NCBI GenBank assembly: GCA_013285405.1
Contig: CP053446.1
Span: forward strand, 124,001 to 188,000
Length of the DNA: 64,000 bases
From: Ignavibacteriota bacterium
GTDB taxonomy: Bacteria; Bacteroidota; Ignavibacteria; Ignavibacteriales; Ignavibacteriaceae
Direction of reading: 5' to 3'
The notes beneath the pieces are model-generated. The model saw only the letters and a program-made list of their open reading frames with translations. It was not told where the DNA came from and searched no databases. Below, piece by piece: positions 7,432 through 15,401 of this stretch. How positions within the stretch are numbered: position 1 is the first letter of the stretch; each line of letters starts with the position of its first letter. The position numbers were made by a program, and so were the translations under genes.

Positions 7432-7619
7432 AATTACTCCCTTGTTTTTAACAGATGTCCTCTTGAATCTCTCGATACTTTATTTATTAATTTTGTATCT
7501 ATTAAAAATAGTCCTTTTCAATTCAAATTGTCTAAAGCAGTTGCTTTTAACCTGCTGCTCAGAACAATAATGCAGAATAAAGCACAACTGTCTCTGATTA
7601 AAAATTAATTTTGCCGGTT

Positions 7620-8234
7620 TTATTTTTCCTCGATCATTAAGGGAGTCAATGCATCAGTAGAATCCACAATCGATCCTTCAAAGCTGATTCGGGGATCGTT
7701 TATATCGACAAGTTCATTCAATTCATAGACATTGTGATAACCATATCCGTAAAGGTTTATGTAAGTTGGTATATTCAATGCCATCATCAGCGGTTTTTCT
7801 TGTGAGTTGAACTGTGCAGTAATAATGCTGCCTGAGTTAGTTACCGGCATTGCAACTTTGGACGCAAAATCAATCTGGTTGCCATCGAAATTATTGTTGC
7901 AGTAGATTAGTATTGTTGTCTCGAATGAAGGAATGACTTCTGCAAGATTGTTCTGCGTAAAATCTGTGAAACTCAGGTGCTTTGCTCCTTTCACGTGAAT
8001 GCGTTCGTAACGAAAAGTTGAACGACTATCCAGAATAATTACTCCAGGTTGATTACTCATCTTTAAGAATGTGTCGAGATCAACCAACCGTTTTTCGCGA
8101 TGTGGCTCAACTTCAGAGACAAGGTTTTTAAAGTCATCAAAACTGACTTTAGCTTTTGGGTAGGAATTGTCCTGTGCTATAACCGATGTACTAAAAAGTA
8201 TCATTGCAAATGCTGCAAGTATTTTCGCATTCAT
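7620..8234 (-). CDS. Periplasmic rhodanese-like domain protein
   Basis: The ATG at 8234 is preferred to the one two codons upstream because an AAGGA lies 6 nt before it. A signal peptide (MNAKILAAFAMILFSTSVIAQ) is followed by a rhodanese domain: 'PGVIILDSRSTFRYERIHVK' with 'GAKHLSFTDF', then 'TTILIYCNNNFDGN', where Cys is the expected sulphur-carrying residue of the active loop. The domain then continues without the usual CH2B-type motifs but includes 'YGYGYHNVYELNELVDIND'. It may move sulphur or simply bind a partner in the periplasm. The single-domain form is ~200 aa, as expected. Confidence 0.85.
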   Translation of the reverse strand: MNAKILAAFAMILFSTSVIAQDNSYPKAKVSFDDFKNLVSEVEPHREKRLVDLDTFLKMSNQPGVIILDSRSTFRYERIHVKGAKHLSFTDFTQNNLAEVIPSFETTILIYCNNNFDGNQIDFASKVAMPVTNSGSIITAQFNSQEKPLMMALNIPTYINLYGYGYHNVYELNELVDINDPRISFEGSIVDSTDALTPLMIEEK

Positions 8235-8264
8235 AACCATTCCTTTCTTTTTTTTCAGATATCG

Positions 8265-8421
8265 ATGATACTGACAATTCCCTTTTCAGAATTTAAGCTG
8301 AGTTTGCTAAAGCACAAAAAGTTTTTTACTAAGCTGCAAATCTAAAAGTTCCGAAACAGCCAAGCCTGCCTGTCAGTAGACAGGTGCGAAAAGGCAATCA
8401 GGTTGATTACTAGTTATACAG
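8265..8421 (-). repeat. attC-like repeat 1 (degraded), left edge of the cassette array
   Basis: This region aligns by eye with the repeat at 9181-9327 (shared 'AATTTA..CT.AG.TT.CTAAAG', 'AAAAGTTCC', 'GCCAA' blocks). It ends at GTTATACAG (8413-8421), six of seven bases complementary to the R''-like ATATAAC at 9183-9189. It also contains a CCTGCCTGTCAGTAGACAGG palindrome (8365-8384). The far end is not clear, so the boundary is approximate. Confidence 0.4.
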
Positions 8422-8427
8422 CTTTTG

Positions 8428-8853
8428 CTATTTTAATTTCGTATCTAAACTTTTTAGAAACTCTTCTGCTGTCAAGATATCTATTTTACTACGTCTATAA
8501 TCTATTTTATTTCTGGAAATAATAAGTGTGATACCATTATTTACAGCCGTGTAATACTGAATTGCATCTTCAAAATCATTGAATCCGGAATTAAGTGATT
8601 GTTCAATTACTCTTTCATCAATTGGTAAAATATTTATGAGAGTTTTTAGTTTTCTTAAACTCTTTAATGCTACGAAATTTGTGGTTTGTTTCTTTAGAAG
8701 GTAGTGCAGATTTGCGAAAATAAGTGGCGACGTGTAAGCGATAATTTTATTTTGATTAATCAACGTGAATAATCTAGCTGAGTGAATATAGTACGGCTCC
8801 CTTTCAGCAAGTAAATCCAATATTATATCCGAATCAACAAATATTTTTATCAT
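8428..8853 (-). CDS. PIN domain toxin of a type II toxin-antitoxin pair
   Basis: A 141-aa PIN-domain protein. The acidic metal-binding residues are visible: 'FVDSDIILDLL' (first Asp), 'PLIFANLHYLL' with the central acidic helix, 'GFNDFEDAIQYYTA' (DxxD/E pair) and 'LIISRNKIDYRRS' (N-x-x-D). Such proteins are Mg-dependent endoribonucleases that cut RNA when freed from their antitoxin. The start codon overlaps the antitoxin stop (ATGA at 8850-8853), showing translational coupling. The stop lies next to the attC-like site at 8413-8421, so the pair reads as one cassette. Confidence 0.85.
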   Translation of the reverse strand: MIKIFVDSDIILDLLAEREPYYIHSARLFTLINQNKIIAYTSPLIFANLHYLLKKQTTNFVALKSLRKLKTLINILPIDERVIEQSLNSGFNDFEDAIQYYTAVNNGITLIISRNKIDYRRSKIDILTAEEFLKSLDTKLK

Positions 8854-9101
8854 TTGGAATATTTTGCTTCTATATGATCTCTATAAGCCTCTTTCAAATT
8901 AATATGCTTTGGTAACTTGATAATCCCGGAAAGTTCGAGAACATTTGGTGATATTTCAATTTCAGTAATGCTTTCTTTATCAGATATTAAATTGAAATAT
9001 TTTTCTACCATTATTGAAAGACTCTGTTTATTTCTTTGAGCATATTTTTTAGCACGATCAATTGCTTTTTTATTGAGTTTTAATGTTAGTTTTGTATTCA
9101 T
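8850..9101 (-). CDS. Ribbon-helix-helix type antitoxin (DUF6364-like)
   Basis: The ATG at 9101 is chosen because AGAAAGGA precedes it and because homologues begin 'MNTKLTLKL'. The 83-aa product starts with a beta strand ('TKLTLKLNKKAIDRAKKYA') and a helix typical of DUF6364/RHH antitoxins ('RNKQSLSIMVEKYFNLI'). It ends in an acidic-basic tail ('LKEAYRDHIEAKYSK') that would wrap the PIN toxin. Gene order (antitoxin first), ATGA overlap and sizes are standard. The protein should neutralise the toxin and autoregulate by binding the promoter just upstream, which here overlaps the attC-like repeat. Confidence 0.8.
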   Translation of the reverse strand: MNTKLTLKLNKKAIDRAKKYAQRNKQSLSIMVEKYFNLISDKESITEIEISPNVLELSGIIKLPKHINLKEAYRDHIEAKYSK

Positions 9102-9180
9102 ATAAATCCTTTCTATCATACGTAAATATTCTAATGACAAGATACGTATAACCACTCCAATTTTCAAGTTCTACTATTTG

Positions 9181-9327
9181 CAATATAACGGCGTTATTGA
9201 TAACCCGCTGCCTATAATTTATACTAAGATTACTAAAGAAAAAAAAGTTTTTACTTCACTCCGATTCCAAAAGTTCCAGAACTGCCAAACTCGAAAACAC
9301 TGTAGGATTGAGTTGCTGGTTAGTTGC
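9181..9327 (-). repeat. attC-like repeat 2 (147 bp)
   Basis: On the minus strand it runs from GCAACTAAC (9327-9319) to GTTATATTG (9189-9181), matching the attC form RYYYAAC...GTTRRRY. The minus-strand right arm reads GGCAGCGGGTTATCAATAACGCC before GTTATATTG, almost the same as in repeats 3 and 4. It separates the PIN/antitoxin cassette from the BrnTA block. Confidence 0.55.
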
Positions 9328-9383
9328 TATTTTAATATTTTCTAATAGCATTATATTATAATTATTAAATAGACATATTAAAT

Positions 9384-9665
9384 ATGCGTTTTGTTTGGGA
9401 TAAAAATAAGAACCTCGCTAATATCAAGAAACATAAAATATCTTTTGAAGAAGCAAAGACAGTTTTTCTTGATGATAATGCCAGACTTATACATGATCCG
9501 GAACATTCAATATCGGAAGAACGATTTATTATTTTAGGAATTACAAACAAATTAAGACTCCTCGTTGTTGTGCATACCTATAAAGAGGACGGTGATGTTA
9601 TTAGAATAATTTCTGCCCGCAAAGCAACAAGAACTGAAACAATATATTATTACAAGGTGAAATAA
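9384..9665 (+). CDS. brnT: BrnT family toxin
   Basis: A 93-aa protein of the BrnT (DUF497) family, a RelE-fold ribonuclease. Hallmarks are 'FVWDKNKNLANIKKHKISF' at the N-terminus, 'EEAKTVFLDDNARLIHDPEH', 'SEERFIILGITNKLRLLVVV' and 'VIRIISARKATRTE', where the late Arg/Lys residues are part of the active surface. It cleaves RNA and stops translation when not bound by BrnA. The toxin gene is first, as usual for brnTA, and brnA starts 1 bp after its stop. It is opposite in orientation to its PIN neighbour. Confidence 0.93.
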   Translation: MRFVWDKNKNLANIKKHKISFEEAKTVFLDDNARLIHDPEHSISEERFIILGITNKLRLLVVVHTYKEDGDVIRIISARKATRTETIYYYKVK

Positions 9666-9666
9666 A

Positions 9667-9879
9667 ATGAAAAAAGAATATAACTTCAGTGATTCCATTA
9701 AGAATCCTTATACAAAGAAACTAAAAAAACAGATTTCAATCCGTATCGAAAAAGAAACTGTTGAGTATTTCAAAAAACTGGCTTCAGAAATTGATATCCC
9801 TTATCAGAATCTGATGAATATGTATTTAAGGGAATGTGCGCAAAACAATTTCAAACCAAATATTCACTGGCGAAAGTAA
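9667..9879 (+). CDS. brnA: BrnA family antitoxin
   Basis: A 70-aa BrnA/CopG-type antitoxin. 'KKQISIRIEKETVEYFKKLA' is the ribbon-helix-helix strand and first helix, and 'IDIPYQNLMNMYLRECA' is the second helix with the conserved family pattern. The ribosome binding site (AAGGTGA) lies within the end of brnT, so the two are translated together. The protein should dimerise, bind BrnT and repress the operon. Confidence 0.9.
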   Translation: MKKEYNFSDSIKNPYTKKLKKQISIRIEKETVEYFKKLASEIDIPYQNLMNMYLRECAQNNFKPNIHWRK

Positions 9880-9957
9880 TTTTACACTAGCTTCTAATAT
9901 TTTTCTTGAAACTATCAGAATAATGATATAATTTTGACATAGACAAAAGGAGTACTT

Positions 9958-10230
9958 ATGCCAATTATAAAACCAATATCTGATTTGAGAAATAAATCAA
10001 ACCAAATATCAGAACTTGCCAACAATTCTAACGAACCGATATTCATAACTAAAAATGGTGAAGGAGATTTAGTAGTTATGTCAATGTCTCATTATTCCAA
10101 GCTGCAATTAAAGATCGATTTACTTAGTAAACTATCCGCTGCACAGAATCAAAAAGCCGAAGGTGATAAGGGACGAACACTAAAACAAGTAATGACTGAT
10201 ATTCGGAATTCGATTAATGCCAAAAGATAA
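9958..10230 (+). CDS. Phd/YefM family antitoxin
   Basis: A 90-aa antitoxin preceded by a strong AAAAGGAG. The Phd/YefM fold is clear: 'PISDLRNKSNQISELANNSN' followed by 'EPIFITKNGEGDLVVMSM', the signature segment. 'HYSKLQLKIDLLSKLSAAQ' leads into a disordered, Lys-rich C-terminus that wraps the toxin. It overlaps the following ParE/RelE gene by 14 bp. It lies 78 bp after brnA without an attC-like site between, so the two modules may share one cassette. Confidence 0.92.
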   Translation: MPIIKPISDLRNKSNQISELANNSNEPIFITKNGEGDLVVMSMSHYSKLQLKIDLLSKLSAAQNQKAEGDKGRTLKQVMTDIRNSINAKR

Positions 10231-10525
10231 ATATCAAATTCGATTTCTCAGAGTTGCTGATGAAGATTTAACTGAAATAATATCTTTTATTGCATCCGAT
10301 AATCCGACTGCGGCAAATGCAATCGCTGACAAAATTGAAAAGAACATTGAACTTCTATCTGAGAATCCAATTCTTGGCAGAATACCAAGAGATGAAGACA
10401 TCAAAAATCTTGGGTATAGATATATAATTATTCAAAATTATATCGTTTTCTATACAATCGAAGAAAGAACGATTTTAATTCACAGAATCCTGCACGGCGC
10501 TAGAAATTATAAAACAATTCTATGA
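10217..10525 (+). CDS. ParE/RelE family toxin
   Basis: A 102-aa RelE/ParE superfamily toxin: 'YQIRFLRVADEDLTEIISFI' (helix 1), 'NPTAANAIADKIEKNIELL' (helix 2), 'NPILGRIPRDED', then 'YRYIIIQNYIVFYTIEERTI' and 'ILHGARNYKTIL'. The C-terminal 'H.ARNY..IL' and the mid-segment 'P..GR...DE' are typical of ParE-type members. Those inhibit DNA gyrase, whereas RelE members cut ribosome-bound mRNA; sequence alone leans to ParE. Translation is coupled to the antitoxin by overlap. An attC-like repeat starts 9 bp after its stop. Confidence 0.9.
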   Translation: MPKDKYQIRFLRVADEDLTEIISFIASDNPTAANAIADKIEKNIELLSENPILGRIPRDEDIKNLGYRYIIIQNYIVFYTIEERTILIHRILHGARNYKTIL

Positions 10526-10533
10526 TTTCTTAA

Positions 10534-10820
10534 CAGCTTAACGGCTTGCCGATAACCCCTGCCCAGCTTGCCCGCCGAAGTTTTAACGAAGTCGAGGACA
10601 GCAATGCAGATTAAAAAGACAAAACAAATGATTTATTCCGGTAGTTGCCGAACACTTTTCTTTCTTTGCAAGCACGTTTTGCAAGTTAATTATTTTTTTA
10701 TAAGACTTTTAACAACAAACTTTTTACGGAACGACTAAGCCAAAAAAATAAAAACTGCCAAGCCTGCCTGTCGGCAGACAGGTGCGAATTGGCAGGCAGC
10801 TTGAGGCACGGGTTATATTG
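10534..10820 (-). repeat. attC-like repeat 3 (287 bp)
   Basis: On the minus strand it starts with CAATATAAC (10820-10812), then CCGTGCCTCAAGCTGCC, and ends GGTTATCGGCAAGCC followed by GTTAAGCTG (10542-10534). This is the attC layout R''-L''...L'-R', with an L box (TCAAGC) like that of classical aadA-type sites. It is longer than classical attC (~60-140 bp) and holds a CCTGCCTGTCGGCAGACAGG palindrome at 10763-10782. It shares long blocks with repeat 4. Confidence 0.6.
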
Positions 10821-10839
10821 ATATTAATTAAAATGAAAT

Positions 10840-11148
10840 TTATTTGATTAAAGAAACAATAGTAACATTCAAATATAAAGGACCACCATCAACAGGATAA
10901 CCTTCAATAAGATTTCCAGAAATTTTCACTTCTTTATTTTCAAAATTATTTAAATCAATAGTTGAACTGGTTAAAGCATAAATTGGCTTACCACCCGCAT
11001 CATTGAGAGTATGTGTTCCGTACATCCAGGTTGATACTTCGATTTTATGAATTACACCAATCTGATTTTGTTTTTCTGCAGGATCTACACTTGACTCACA
11101 AGCAAAAAAGAAAAGTGAAAATGCTAATAAAAATAATGTTAGTTTCAT
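10840..11148 (-). CDS. Small lipoprotein in a cassette (possible OB-fold)
   Basis: The ATG at 11148 is chosen because AAGGTGA precedes it and a lipobox follows (MKLTLFLLAFSLFFFACESS); the longer frame runs into the attC-like repeat. The mature ~85 residues read as beta strands: 'GVIHKIEVSTWMYGTHTL', 'KPIYALTSSTIDLNNFENK', 'EVKISGNLIEGYPVDGGPLY', 'LNVTIVSL'. The pattern 'V.I.G......GP.YL.V..I' suggests a small OB-like barrel, but no family is assigned. The cassette is bounded by GTTATATTG (10812-10820) and its exact complement CAATATAAC (11172-11180). Confidence 0.75.
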   Translation of the reverse strand: MKLTLFLLAFSLFFFACESSVDPAEKQNQIGVIHKIEVSTWMYGTHTLNDAGGKPIYALTSSTIDLNNFENKEVKISGNLIEGYPVDGGPLYLNVTIVSLIK

Positions 11149-11171
11149 TTCAGTCACCTTTAAATTGTTTG

Positions 11172-11420
11172 CAATATAACGACGTTGCCGATAACCTGCT
11201 GCCAAGAACAACAATGCAGAATAAAAAGACAAAGCCAAAGACCTGCCTGCCGGCAGGCAGGTTTAGTAAACTGTGCTTATCTTTCTTTGCAAGTGCAGTT
11301 TACAAGTTAATTATTTTTTTATAACACTTTAACAACAAACTTTTTACGGAACGACCAACCAGAAAATTTTATAAATACCAACTGCGAATTCGCAGGCAGC
11401 TTGAGGCACGGGTTAGGTTG
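11172..11420 (-). repeat. attC-like repeat 4 (249 bp)
   Basis: On the minus strand it runs from CAACCTAAC (11420-11412) plus CCGTGCCTCAAGCTGCC to GGCAGCAGGTTATCGGCAACGTC and GTTATATTG (11180-11172). The middle includes a perfect palindrome of the CCTGCC family at 11241-11262 and blocks shared with repeat 3 ('AACAACAAACTTTTTACGGA'). The stop codon of the next cassette gene (11421) directly touches this site, as in many integron cassettes. Confidence 0.65.
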
Positions 11421-12023
11421 TTATTGTTTTAGTTGAACGTTAGTTGAAACCAGTTCTCTTGTCTGGATTAAATATGTCGTATCACTATTATATGGTCTCA
11501 TTGGTGTTTCACTGTAAATTAAACCAATACCAGGCGAATAGATTGTATTATAAGAAAAATCATAGAAATATCGATTGTATACATAACATTTTAACTTACC
11601 TAAATTTGTTTGAAATAGTGAATCTTTTGATGTAACAGTAAATCCATCTAATGATTCACCAACTTCTGCTGGATAAGGATATGTTATTGAATATGATTCA
11701 AAGTTAGTAACATGATGCCCAATGGTATCATTTCTAAAACCTGTTTGCCCAAGCATTGTCCTATTAGAGCCTTGAAGAAACCATAATACATTATTAATAG
11801 CAGTATCTTTTTTAATAAAAAATGTTAAAGTATCTATCCAATCTATTGCTCCCAAAGTATCATATGTTGTTATCTTAAAAGACCAGCTATTTCCAATTTT
11901 CAATGGAACTAATTCATCAGGCTCTGTATCTGGAGGTAAAATCGGATTTGTTGATTCACTGCACGTACTGATAACAATAGAAAAAAATATTAACAGTACT
12001 ATTGAAATTTTTTTGTTATTCAT
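11421..12023 (-). CDS. Lipoprotein of unknown function in a cassette
   Basis: A 200-aa protein with a lipobox (MNNKKISIVLLIFFSIVIST, then Cys). After a Pro-rich linker, a beta-rich domain starts 'LVPLKIGNSWSFKITTYDT', has tryptophans at the start of strands, and ends 'IYSPGIGLIYSETPMRPY'. The motif 'PL.IGNSW.Y ... YxPGIGLI' recurs in secreted proteins of Ignavibacteria-like genomes, but no function is known to me. AAGGGG lies ~8 nt before the ATG. The cassette ends are GTTAGGTTG (11412-11420) and the exact complement CAACCTAAC (12048-12056). Confidence 0.75.
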   Translation of the reverse strand: MNNKKISIVLLIFFSIVISTCSESTNPILPPDTEPDELVPLKIGNSWSFKITTYDTLGAIDWIDTLTFFIKKDTAINNVLWFLQGSNRTMLGQTGFRNDTIGHHVTNFESYSITYPYPAEVGESLDGFTVTSKDSLFQTNLGKLKCYVYNRYFYDFSYNTIYSPGIGLIYSETPMRPYNSDTTYLIQTRELVSTNVQLKQ

Positions 12024-12047
12024 ATTTACCCCTTAATCTTCATTTGA

Positions 12048-12491
12048 CAACCTAACGACGTGTTATGTTAAAACACAACACCGTAATTATTTTTAATTTA
12101 AGATTTCCTGTGTGTTTATCTTTTTATTAAACACTTTAATTAATTTCAATATCTAACTTAATCCAATCAACGAAATAAATCATCCTCTTTAATAATAGGA
12201 TATCCTCCCGTATAGCAGGACAAGTCGTTATACGCTCTTCCACTAAAGAATGAGTAATTCCCAAAATGCCTGTCCCGAACTTGTTTCGGGAAAGTATGGC
12301 TGCCATAGCCTTTTTGATATTAAGGCAGAATAGTTGTTTTCCCGCTTTTGCAGGATCCCGTTTTAAGGGAAAGTAAGAAACATTGTAGATCAGTTTTTCA
12401 AAGCACTTAATTTTTAATTTAACTGTCTCGAGCCGGATAACTATTTATTTTCTGTGCCTATTGACTTTTTATTATTAAAGAGGTTAGGCAC
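12048..12491 (-). repeat. Non-canonical attC-like interval (444 bp) with REP insert
   Basis: The interval lies between the cassette end CAACCTAAC (12048-12056) and the next cassette start GTTAGGCAC (12483-12491). CCTAACGACGTGTTATGTT at 12051 keeps the shared end pattern. Near the other end, TCTGTGCCTA / TAGGCACAGA forms a perfect 10-bp inverted repeat (about 12456-12494). A CCCGAACTTGTTTCGGG palindrome near 12277 suggests a later insertion. Whether this is one enlarged attC or two sites with a lost gene is open. Confidence 0.4.
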
Positions 12492-12546
12492 AGATTATAA
12501 ATTATTTTTTTTATATACTAAATAAATGTTTAAAAAAGACTAAATA

Positions 12547-13071
12547 TTAAAATGTTTTAAAATGAAAAATTGGAACATCAATTGCTGTTTCATTCAACAT
12601 TATTTTTCTTATTTCTAAATCAGCTGCAAAATAAACTAGGTTTGCAAAAACATTATCCTCTTTTGAGAATTGAAAACTAAACTTTGCTGTACTATTTGGA
12701 TAAACAGAGATTGAATTTTTAATCATACTCTTTCCATCTTTGAGGAAACCCTTTTGATTATAAAAATATACGTTATCTAAATTAAATACTTTGTAATTAG
12801 TAATATCGTTTAAAACTATATCATCCAATAAAAATTTAATTGAATCAACTTTACTTGATATTTCAATTTCGAAATTACTATAATTGAGAAGTGGCGGTTG
12901 GTCGTAATAATGAAAATCTCCCTTAACTTTAACAATTAATTTATCTGTTAAATAGATGATATATTCATCTGATACAGAGTAATTTGAAGATTCGATTGGT
13001 TTATATTCTATTAAAAGAGTGCAACTTGAAAATATTAAAGCGACTATAGATATATAAAATCCTTTTTTCAT
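12547..13071 (-). CDS. Lipoprotein of unknown function in a cassette
   Basis: A 174-aa protein with a lipobox (MKKGFYISIVALIFSSC). The mature part is rich in beta strands and aromatic residues ('EYIIYLTDKLIVKVKGDFHY', 'NVYFYNQKGFLKDGKSM', 'STAKFSFQFSKEDN'). No family is recognised. On the minus strand the ATG lies 13 nt after the G of GTTAGGCAC (13084-13076), the short leader typical of integron cassettes. The matching complement GTTAGGCAC is at 12483-12491 on the plus strand. Base composition is even more AT-rich than its neighbours. Confidence 0.7.
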   Translation of the reverse strand: MKKGFYISIVALIFSSCTLLIEYKPIESSNYSVSDEYIIYLTDKLIVKVKGDFHYYDQPPLLNYSNFEIEISSKVDSIKFLLDDIVLNDITNYKVFNLDNVYFYNQKGFLKDGKSMIKNSISVYPNSTAKFSFQFSKEDNVFANLVYFAADLEIRKIMLNETAIDVPIFHFKTF

Positions 13072-13075
13072 TTTA

Positions 13076-13084
13076 GTGCCTAAC
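13076..13084 (-). other. Cassette boundary core site
   Basis: GTGCCTAAC on the plus strand (GTTAGGCAC on the minus strand, fitting GTTRRRY) is the exact complement of the core at 12483-12491. To its right no attC arm of the common type, attI or integrase gene could be seen before 13500, so the array may end here. Confidence 0.5.
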
Positions 13085-13487
13085 TATTACTTATACCGAG
13101 TTGGTGGTCCTCAATCCGGTTGTTATTTAAGAATTATTTTCTAATCTACCGACCACATTATTTATTATTTTTTTCTTCTAACTTATTTTAATGCTTATAC
13201 TTAAAAATGCAATTACCGGGTTCTTTCAGGAATATATTCCCGAAAGTTTTTCTCATCTATCAACTTTTAATCCAATGGGCTTCTAACTCCAATGCCTCTA
13301 TTCAACACGTGAGTATATATCATCGTTGTTTTTACAACCTAAAATTAAAACTTCGTGGTAACTATATCAATCAACATTTAACAATAATTCGCTCAACTCT
13401 TTTCAAATTTTTATATTTACTGAAGACTGTTCATAATAATTCTTAATATCAAAATATGATCATCCAAAGAATAAATAATTCTATGTC
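13085..13487. other. Intergenic region right of the cassette array
   Basis: No credible gene. A 79-codon open frame at 13207-13446 has no family features, no ribosome binding site and an odd composition. A GTGGTC / GACCAC inverted repeat lies near 13106-13155. Nothing else was recognised. Confidence 0.4.
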
Positions 13488-13632: not shown

Positions 13633-13691
13633 TATATAAAAAATGTTTGAGAGATATATATTTGCACAACAACAATAAATCAAATAACTCG

Positions 13692-15401
13692 ATGAAAAAT
13701 TCAGCGCTATTTATTCTAACATTAATTTGCATTCATACGTTCATACAACCATTCCTGCCTGTCCGGCAGGCAGGCATTCATACAACGATGGCTCAATCGA
13801 AGCAGACCGCTTTCATCAACGGAAAAATTTATACAGTTAACGAAAAGCAGCCGTATGCAGAAGCTGTTGTTGTTGAAGGAAATAAAATAAAATTCGTCGG
13901 TTCAACAAGTGAAGCAAGAAAATTCATTGATACACAAACAGAAGTAATTGATCTTGATGGAAAGCTGATGCTTCCGGGATTTAATGACAGCCATCTCCAT
14001 TTTACAAGCGGAGGGAATTATTTGCTTGGAATAAATCTTCGTCCTGCACTCAGCAAAGAAGAGTTTGTTGAAATAATTCAGTCATATATTTTAAGAAGAA
14101 CTCTCTCCGAATCATCCTGGGTTACAGGAGGACGATGGGACCACGAACTCTGGCAGGATAAATCTCTTCCTACAAAAGATTTGATTGATCCGGTAACAGA
14201 AAACACTCCGGTTTTTGTAAGCAGAATTGATGGACACATCGGTCTTGCAAATTCAAAAGCACTTGAGCTTGCAGGAATAAATAAAAATACACCCGATCCG
14301 GATGGTGGGTTAATAGAAAGAGATAAAAACGGAGAACCGACAGGAATTTTAAAAGACAATGCAATGGATTTGGTTTTCAAAATAATTCCCTCGCCAACTC
14401 TTGAAGAAAATATTGAATCCACTCTTCGTGCGCTTGAAGAAGCAAGAAAACTTGGAATTACAAGCGTTCAGGATATGACTCAACCGGGAGAACTTGAAGC
14501 TTATCAACAAATAATGAAAGATGGGAAATTGACCTGTAGAATTTATTCCATCTGGCCAATTGATCGGTACGAAGATATTGTCCGTGCTGGAATTACAGTT
14601 AATACTGAAGATATTTTTATTAAACGTGGTGGACTAAAAGGCTATGCTGATGGTTCACTCGGAGCAAGCACTGCATGGTTTTTTGAACCGTATTACAGCA
14701 ATCCTTCTAACTACGGATTGGCAAATGATGTTGTTACAAATGGCAATCTTGAAAAATGGTCAACTGATGCAGATAGAAATCGTTTGCAGGTTTGCATCCA
14801 TGCAATTGGTGATAAAGCTAATGCATATGTTCTCGATATGTTTCAGAAAATTAAAAACATTAATTCACCGTGGAACAGAAGATTCAGAATCGAGCATGCA
14901 CAACATCTTCGTAAAGAAGATATAAATCGATTTGCAGAAATAGGAGTAATTGCTTCTGTTCAGCCATATCATTGCATTGACGATGGTGTGTGGGCTGAAA
15001 AAAGAATTGGATCTGAAAGAATAAAAACTACTCACGTATATCATTCGTTACTGGAGAGTGGAGCAGTAGTTTCATTCGGTACTGACTGGCCAGTTGCACC
15101 GCTCAATCCTCTCTATGGAATTTATGCAGCGGTTACACGAGAAACTGTTGACGGTAAAAATCCAAATGGCTGGATACCTTCAGAAATAATCTCTGTTGAA
15201 GATGCTGTGAAGTGTTACACATTAAATTCAGCTTACGCATCTTTTGAAGAAAAAATAAAAGGCAGTATCGAAGTCGGTAAACTGGCAGATTTTGTTGTAT
15301 TGAGTGATGATATTTTTTCAATCGATCCAGATGAAATAAAAAATGTTGAAGTAGAGATGACAATTTTTAATGGCGAGATTGTTTATACGGTGAGGGAATA
15401 G
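13692..15401 (+). CDS. Exported amidohydrolase family protein (YtcJ-like)
   Basis: The ATG at 13692 begins a hydrophobic leader (MKNSALFILTLICIHTFIQP), so the enzyme is probably exported. The ~540-aa mature part is an amidohydrolase-3 (YtcJ-type) enzyme: 'FINGKIYTVNEKQPYAEAVV' opens the small beta-sandwich, 'LPGFNDSHLHFTSGG' has the HxH metal site, 'QVCIHAIGDKAN' and 'RIEHAQHL' supply later His ligands, and 'VSFGTDWPVAPLNPLYGIY' the Asp. Family members hydrolyse C-N bonds in cyclic or acyl amides; substrate unknown. The segment 'LPVRQAG' just after the leader is encoded by a perfect CCTGCC-type palindrome at 13754-13774 and is not part of the family. Confidence 0.92.
   Translation: MKNSALFILTLICIHTFIQPFLPVRQAGIHTTMAQSKQTAFINGKIYTVNEKQPYAEAVVVEGNKIKFVGSTSEARKFIDTQTEVIDLDGKLMLPGFNDSHLHFTSGGNYLLGINLRPALSKEEFVEIIQSYILRRTLSESSWVTGGRWDHELWQDKSLPTKDLIDPVTENTPVFVSRIDGHIGLANSKALELAGINKNTPDPDGGLIERDKNGEPTGILKDNAMDLVFKIIPSPTLEENIESTLRALEEARKLGITSVQDMTQPGELEAYQQIMKDGKLTCRIYSIWPIDRYEDIVRAGITVNTEDIFIKRGGLKGYADGSLGASTAWFFEPYYSNPSNYGLANDVVTNGNLEKWSTDADRNRLQVCIHAIGDKANAYVLDMFQKIKNINSPWNRRFRIEHAQHLRKEDINRFAEIGVIASVQPYHCIDDGVWAEKRIGSERIKTTHVYHSLLESGAVVSFGTDWPVAPLNPLYGIYAAVTRETVDGKNPNGWIPSEIISVEDAVKCYTLNSAYASFEEKIKGSIEVGKLADFVVLSDDIFSIDPDEIKNVEVEMTIFNGEIVYTVRE
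13754..13774. repeat. CCTGCC-family palindrome inside a coding region
   Basis: A 21-bp palindrome (CCTGCCTG-TCCGG-CAGGCAGG form) inserted in frame in the amidohydrolase leader, where it encodes LPVRQAG. Copies of the same family occur at 8365, 10763, 11241 and 16102. Similar 'ATTCATACAAC' stretches lie on both sides, as if a short target was duplicated. Confidence 0.7.

Follow-up and report, generated by a model that had tools for sequence, protein, structure and literature searches.

A cassette array headed by an attI site and a 22-codon integrase remnant in an Ignavibacteriota genome: a probable integron that has lost its integrase gene

What leaves three neighboring lipoprotein genes each bounded by a pair of short, exactly complementary sequences that differ from one gene to the next? 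The question arises in a 64,000-nucleotide stretch of DNA analyzed here as a whole (the window, G000:C1:124001-188000), taken from a single-contig Ignavibacteriota genome of 3.86 Mb. An earlier note on this DNA had explained the paired ends by circular cassettes carrying complementary R' and R'' sequences. Our analysis indicates that the genes very probably belong to an integron cassette array that runs along the minus strand, starting from an attI site at 13080 and reaching about 7.5 kb, and that deletion would have left just the last 22 codons of the array's own integrase gene. The window thus holds one attI, about five cassettes, and this remnant (Table 1). An integron integrase cuts between the G and the TT of the GTT core. 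A lipoprotein gene and its attC would form a single cassette entering as a circle and, because of the position of the cut, the inserted cassette would begin with the R' of the circle and finish with its R'', leaving each cassette with private complementary ends.

Table 1. Features of the array, in window positions.
Feature	Position	Strand	Remarks
Integron integrase gene remnant	13267-13335	-	Last 22 codons and stop; tblastn 22/22 identical, IntI residues 296-317
attI region	13080-13266	-	98.8% identity over 256 bp to G000:C1:3153366-3153621; core TAACTATTACTTATACCGAGTT at 13081-13102 (plus-strand letters)
Cassette 1, adjoining attI	12483-13084	-	Lipoprotein gene 12547-13071; ends GTTAGGCAC/GTGCCTAAC (12483, 13076); 9-nt private match
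attC of cassette 1, long type	12050-12489	-	440 bp; 85-97% identical blocks, in G000 arrays only; aligned and folded
Cassette 2	11412-12056	-	Lipoprotein gene 11421-12023; ends GTTAGGTTG/CAACCTAAC (11412, 12048); private match runs to 10 nt
attC of cassette 2, short type	11174-11418	-	245 bp; 71% identical copies at integrase locus and 1.968 Mb
Cassette 3	10812-11180	-	Lipoprotein gene 10840-11148; ends GTTATATTG/CAATATAAC (10812, 11172); 9-nt private match
attC of cassette 3, short type	10536-10818	-	283 bp; palindromic insert in tip
Cassette or fused cassettes	9319-10542	-	BrnT/BrnA and Phd/ParE toxin-antitoxin genes, plus strand; ends unmatched
attC	9183-9325	-	143 bp
Cassette	8413-9189	-	PIN_3 toxin and DUF6364 antitoxin genes; ends match over 6 leading nt
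Last attC	7528-8419	-	Halves 7533-7581 and 8314-8406, split by a rhodanese-domain gene (7620-8240)

The three 9-nt pairs described in the earlier note are all present and exactly complementary. Pairs of this kind do not carry the cassette claim by themselves: in a blind scan of 7 kb, four complementary pairs of at least 9 nt are found, against a mean of 1.19 and a maximum of 6 in 100 Markov shuffles, which is just modestly above chance. A stronger comparison comes from three arrays (the window, the integrase locus discussed below, and a locus at 1.968 Mb; 16 cassettes in all), in which the cassette ends were set independently, via the attC repeat blocks lying between the genes, before end matching was tested. 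A private match of at least 9 nt is then seen in 11 of the 16 cassettes, against 4 of 240 mismatched pairings, and none of 100,000 permutations attains the observed sum. The assertion that three such pairs would be unlikely by chance therefore does not stand as a blind count, but becomes decisive once the ends are defined by the attC blocks; that the pairs are private to their cassettes is borne out by the same figures. Three of the five cassettes falling short of 9 nt do so through a one-base difference within 9-10 nt. In the window, the cassettes at 8413-9189 and 9319-10542 match poorly, over 6 and 4 leading nucleotides, respectively. It is hardly credible that the matches reflect chance, or the inverted repeats of a transposon or of a short palindromic repeat family: the blind count does exceed the shuffles modestly and attC tips do contain palindromic repeats, but transposon ends would not be private to each cassette, and the permutation test, the attI, and the integrase all contradict such an origin. 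REP-like repeats were likewise considered as a cause of the matching ends and dropped.

The lipoprotein genes lie on the same strand as the array and begin 13-33 nt inside their cassettes (the start codon of cassette 1 is 13 nt inside the core), so that they probably depend on transcription from the attI side. No family was found for the three lipoproteins in Pfam or NCBIfam, and an Rfam search of 7-15 kb gave chance matches only; a weak hairpin match sits at the end of cassette 1. The two toxin-antitoxin pairs at 9319-10542 run against the cassette direction, and the segment perhaps represents two cassettes minus their intervening attC. A homologous cassette is found at different loci in G000 and in a genome of the same genus, each time beginning at the core.

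The segment 13080-13335 is almost identical to a distant attI together with the 3' end of the adjacent integrase gene, and the identity of the two attI copies ends exactly at the CTAAC core site, with unrelated cassettes beyond. No intact integrase adjoins the window array, and 13267-13335 holds just the last 22 codons. The extent of this identity, which takes in these codons and stops at the core, points to an array that starts at attI and whose integrase gene was deleted save for the stub. The sole true integron integrase of G000 is a full-length gene at G000:C1:3153556-3154491 on the minus strand, scoring 414.7 bits against the IntI profile TIGR02249 (cut-off 265; residues 1-313 of 315). 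At this intact locus the integrase points the same way as the cassettes, and attI lies at the 3' end of the integrase gene. The closest integrases from named organisms come mostly from Ignavibacteria or Bacteroidetes MAGs and from Stygiobacter electus, which is the basis for describing the family below as Ignavibacteria-like. Just past the 5' end of the intact gene there are long direct repeats with a period of about 240 bp (L025 16600-17200). The 3.15-Mb integrase, with its nearly identical attI, could act in trans on the window array. The circular cassettes proposed in the earlier note are thus supported by an integrase in the genome, an attI adjoining the third pair (13080), recurring attC blocks, the folds of the short-type sites, and the private matches; that reading had missed the attI, the integrase remnant, the distant integrase, and the unusual attC lengths.

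Related genomes bear on how the integrase was lost. The amidohydrolase gene to the right of the array (13647-15401) is conserved in the genus. In G004, which belongs to the same genus, an 86%-identical integrase is represented by its 5' end, on the expected strand and just upstream of this gene. At this position G005 shows no integrase, only an attI-like site plus a cassette with ends that match over 9 nt. G002 does have an integrase there, 55% identical and oppositely oriented, followed by an attI-like core and a cassette. The orientation of the integrase with respect to the attI-like core differs within the one genus (G002:C69; L098 8997-10215). Beside the amidohydrolase gene, G004 thus has an integrase and G005 an attI-like site plus a cassette, so that an integron at this place is ancestral, and the comparison supports loss of the integrase at the ancestral locus. 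A cassette at 2.848 Mb in G000 shares 86% identity with that of G002, the similarity comprising the attI-like core and the cassette and ending before the remaining flank. Comparing boundaries at related loci, which the earlier note had named as the place where cassettes could fail, gives a favorable result: the attI copies part at the core, and a homologous cassette starts there.

Two other histories have to be weighed against these data. An attC cluster without a nearby intact integrase is what defines a CALIN, and the window array is such a cluster. CALINs are common, and their proposed origins include off-target insertion, integrase loss, and rearrangement (PMC8618304). That the array is an ordinary CALIN, a stray cassette cluster without attI inserted off-target (attG-type), nevertheless appears very improbable, since a true attI and 22 leftover integrase codons stand at its head, and since the orthologous locus in G004 keeps integrase sequence. 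In the other history the integrase was not lost in place; the window copy would instead derive from the 3.15-Mb integron, through duplication (a segmental copy) or rearrangement (a chromosome break across the integrase gene). That attI and flank are 98.8% identical at the two loci suggests a recent copy or gene conversion, whereas the G004 integrase and the G005 attI-like site with its cassette, at the same place beside the amidohydrolase gene, argue for loss in place. We consider duplication a serious possibility, if well short of probable, and the two are not mutually exclusive: even with the integrase lost from an ancestral integron, a recent copy or conversion would still be needed to account for how closely the attI resembles the one at 3.15 Mb.

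Blocks of attC are common to the window, the integrase locus, and the third array at 1.968 Mb, and the cassette ends delimit their lengths directly: 143, 245, 283, and 440 bp in the window, and 225-226 and 392-441 bp at the integrase locus. The short type spans 143-283 bp in the window and 189-245 bp elsewhere, while the long type (392-441 bp) recurs with 85-97% identity, inside arrays only. Sites in the window and at the integrase locus exceed the 56-141 bp reported for mobile integrons, chromosomal ones being mostly 120-129 bp (PMC5371416). Some short-type sites have the classic predicted fold, with R pairing, an unpaired spacer, and two extrahelical bases on one arm (INT 26389, 26941); predicted R pairing reaches 0.88 and 0.49 in short-type sites at the integrase locus and is weak (0.14 or less) in those of the window. 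In the long type, R'-R'' pairing is absent from the predicted minimum-energy fold, and these sites are best regarded as unproven candidates for recombination. On the minus strand, the 5' arm of the short type reads TAAC-5 nt-CCTCAA(C/G), which we take to resemble the Vibrio cholerae repeat arm; this likeness suggests that genes and attC have the usual relative orientation.

Both ends of the long type are conserved across the family. A 117-bp version in another genome (L121) looks like the uninserted form, and in the relative G089 (L129) the first 150 bp of the long type run on towards an IS110-family transposase gene. The long type may be a short attC that was expanded by an IS110-like insert and then spread with its cassettes. 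The idea that the long block combines a short attC with a separate gene-less cassette was rejected: it is the outer borders of the block that carry the variable matching ends, which makes the whole block the unit that moves. Two further observations concern the architecture of attC sites. The palindrome GCCTGCCTGTCGGCAGACAGGTGCG, or near copies of it, occupies the same tip position in several of them (10761-10785, 8366-8388, and L055 at about 10260). A short direct repeat, AAAGCACAA, occurs on either side of the rhodanese-domain gene in the split last attC (at about 7581 and 8311), which gives the gene the look of an insertion.

The attI core itself is found four times in G000 (137081, 1970320, 2848887, and 3153367), always with cassettes on the same side and with an integrase only at 3153367. 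One intact integrase could serve the window array plus at least two further attI-capped arrays. At 1970320, the ends of the first cassette match over 11 nt. A simple L-box pattern search was not specific, one match falling at the attI-capped array at 2.848 Mb. At that array (L027 3240-4720), two attC-like sites contain a copy of about 40 nt from the 3' end of a neighboring host gene (AAATAATTCCTTTTGC...), and an intact attI is stacked with a degraded one; new attC sites were possibly built there from host DNA. In the family, 28 attI cores occur in 15 genomes, a reversed-pattern control giving 1 match in all. A full or near-full integrase lies within about 1.5 kb of three cores; four others have fragments nearby, and the remaining 21 a trace at most, so that 25 of the 28 are without a full adjacent integrase, although several of these genomes are drafts whose contig ends may hide a few. 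At half of the cores (14/28), the ends of a first cassette within 1.5 kb match over at least 9 nucleotides. An integrase above the cut-off is found in 24 of 80 family genomes.

Sedentary chromosomal integrons have been reported in Chlorobi/Ignavibacteriae (PMC9024848). The system described here resembles them in its IntI-family integrase, its attI, its promoterless-looking cassettes with attC, and the complementary R'/R'' of each cassette, but differs in having attI at the intI 3' end, in the same direction as the cassettes, along with attC sites of 225-441 bp and several attI per integrase. In Treponema integrons, too, the integrase runs in the cassette direction and attC length classes are mixed in one array, yet the attC sites there measure 63-132 bp (PMC3607928), whereas here they reach 441 bp and there are several attI sites. 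Like a CALIN, the window array lacks an adjoining integrase; unlike one, it keeps a recognizable attI cap and a 22-codon integrase remnant that show its mode of formation. Some IS1111 members target attC. The long-type attC recalls IS1111/IS110-type elements in the roughly 150 bp shared with the relative's locus running towards a transposase gene, but the inserts here are about 320 bp long, lack a transposase, and travel with moving cassettes as part of their attC.

The locus offers a worked example of CALIN formation by integrase loss, in which attI and a 22-codon stub remain and relatives show the earlier state. As attI detection by IntegronFinder 2.0 is limited to class 1 integrons (PMC9024848), attI-capped arrays without an integrase would pass as stray clusters. 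Matching cassette ends measures attC length without a folding model, and reveals sites that exceed the usual range about threefold; such sites make it testable what length of folded single-strand site an integrase can use. A literature search, largely of freely readable papers, returned nothing relevant on several attI sites per integrase. We tentatively suggest, as a reading that falls only a little short of probable, that in this Ignavibacteria-like family the integron may be distributed, with one integrase commonly serving several attI-capped arrays dispersed over the chromosome and also accepting attC sites of more than 400 bp, whose IS110-derived tip would spread along with the cassettes.
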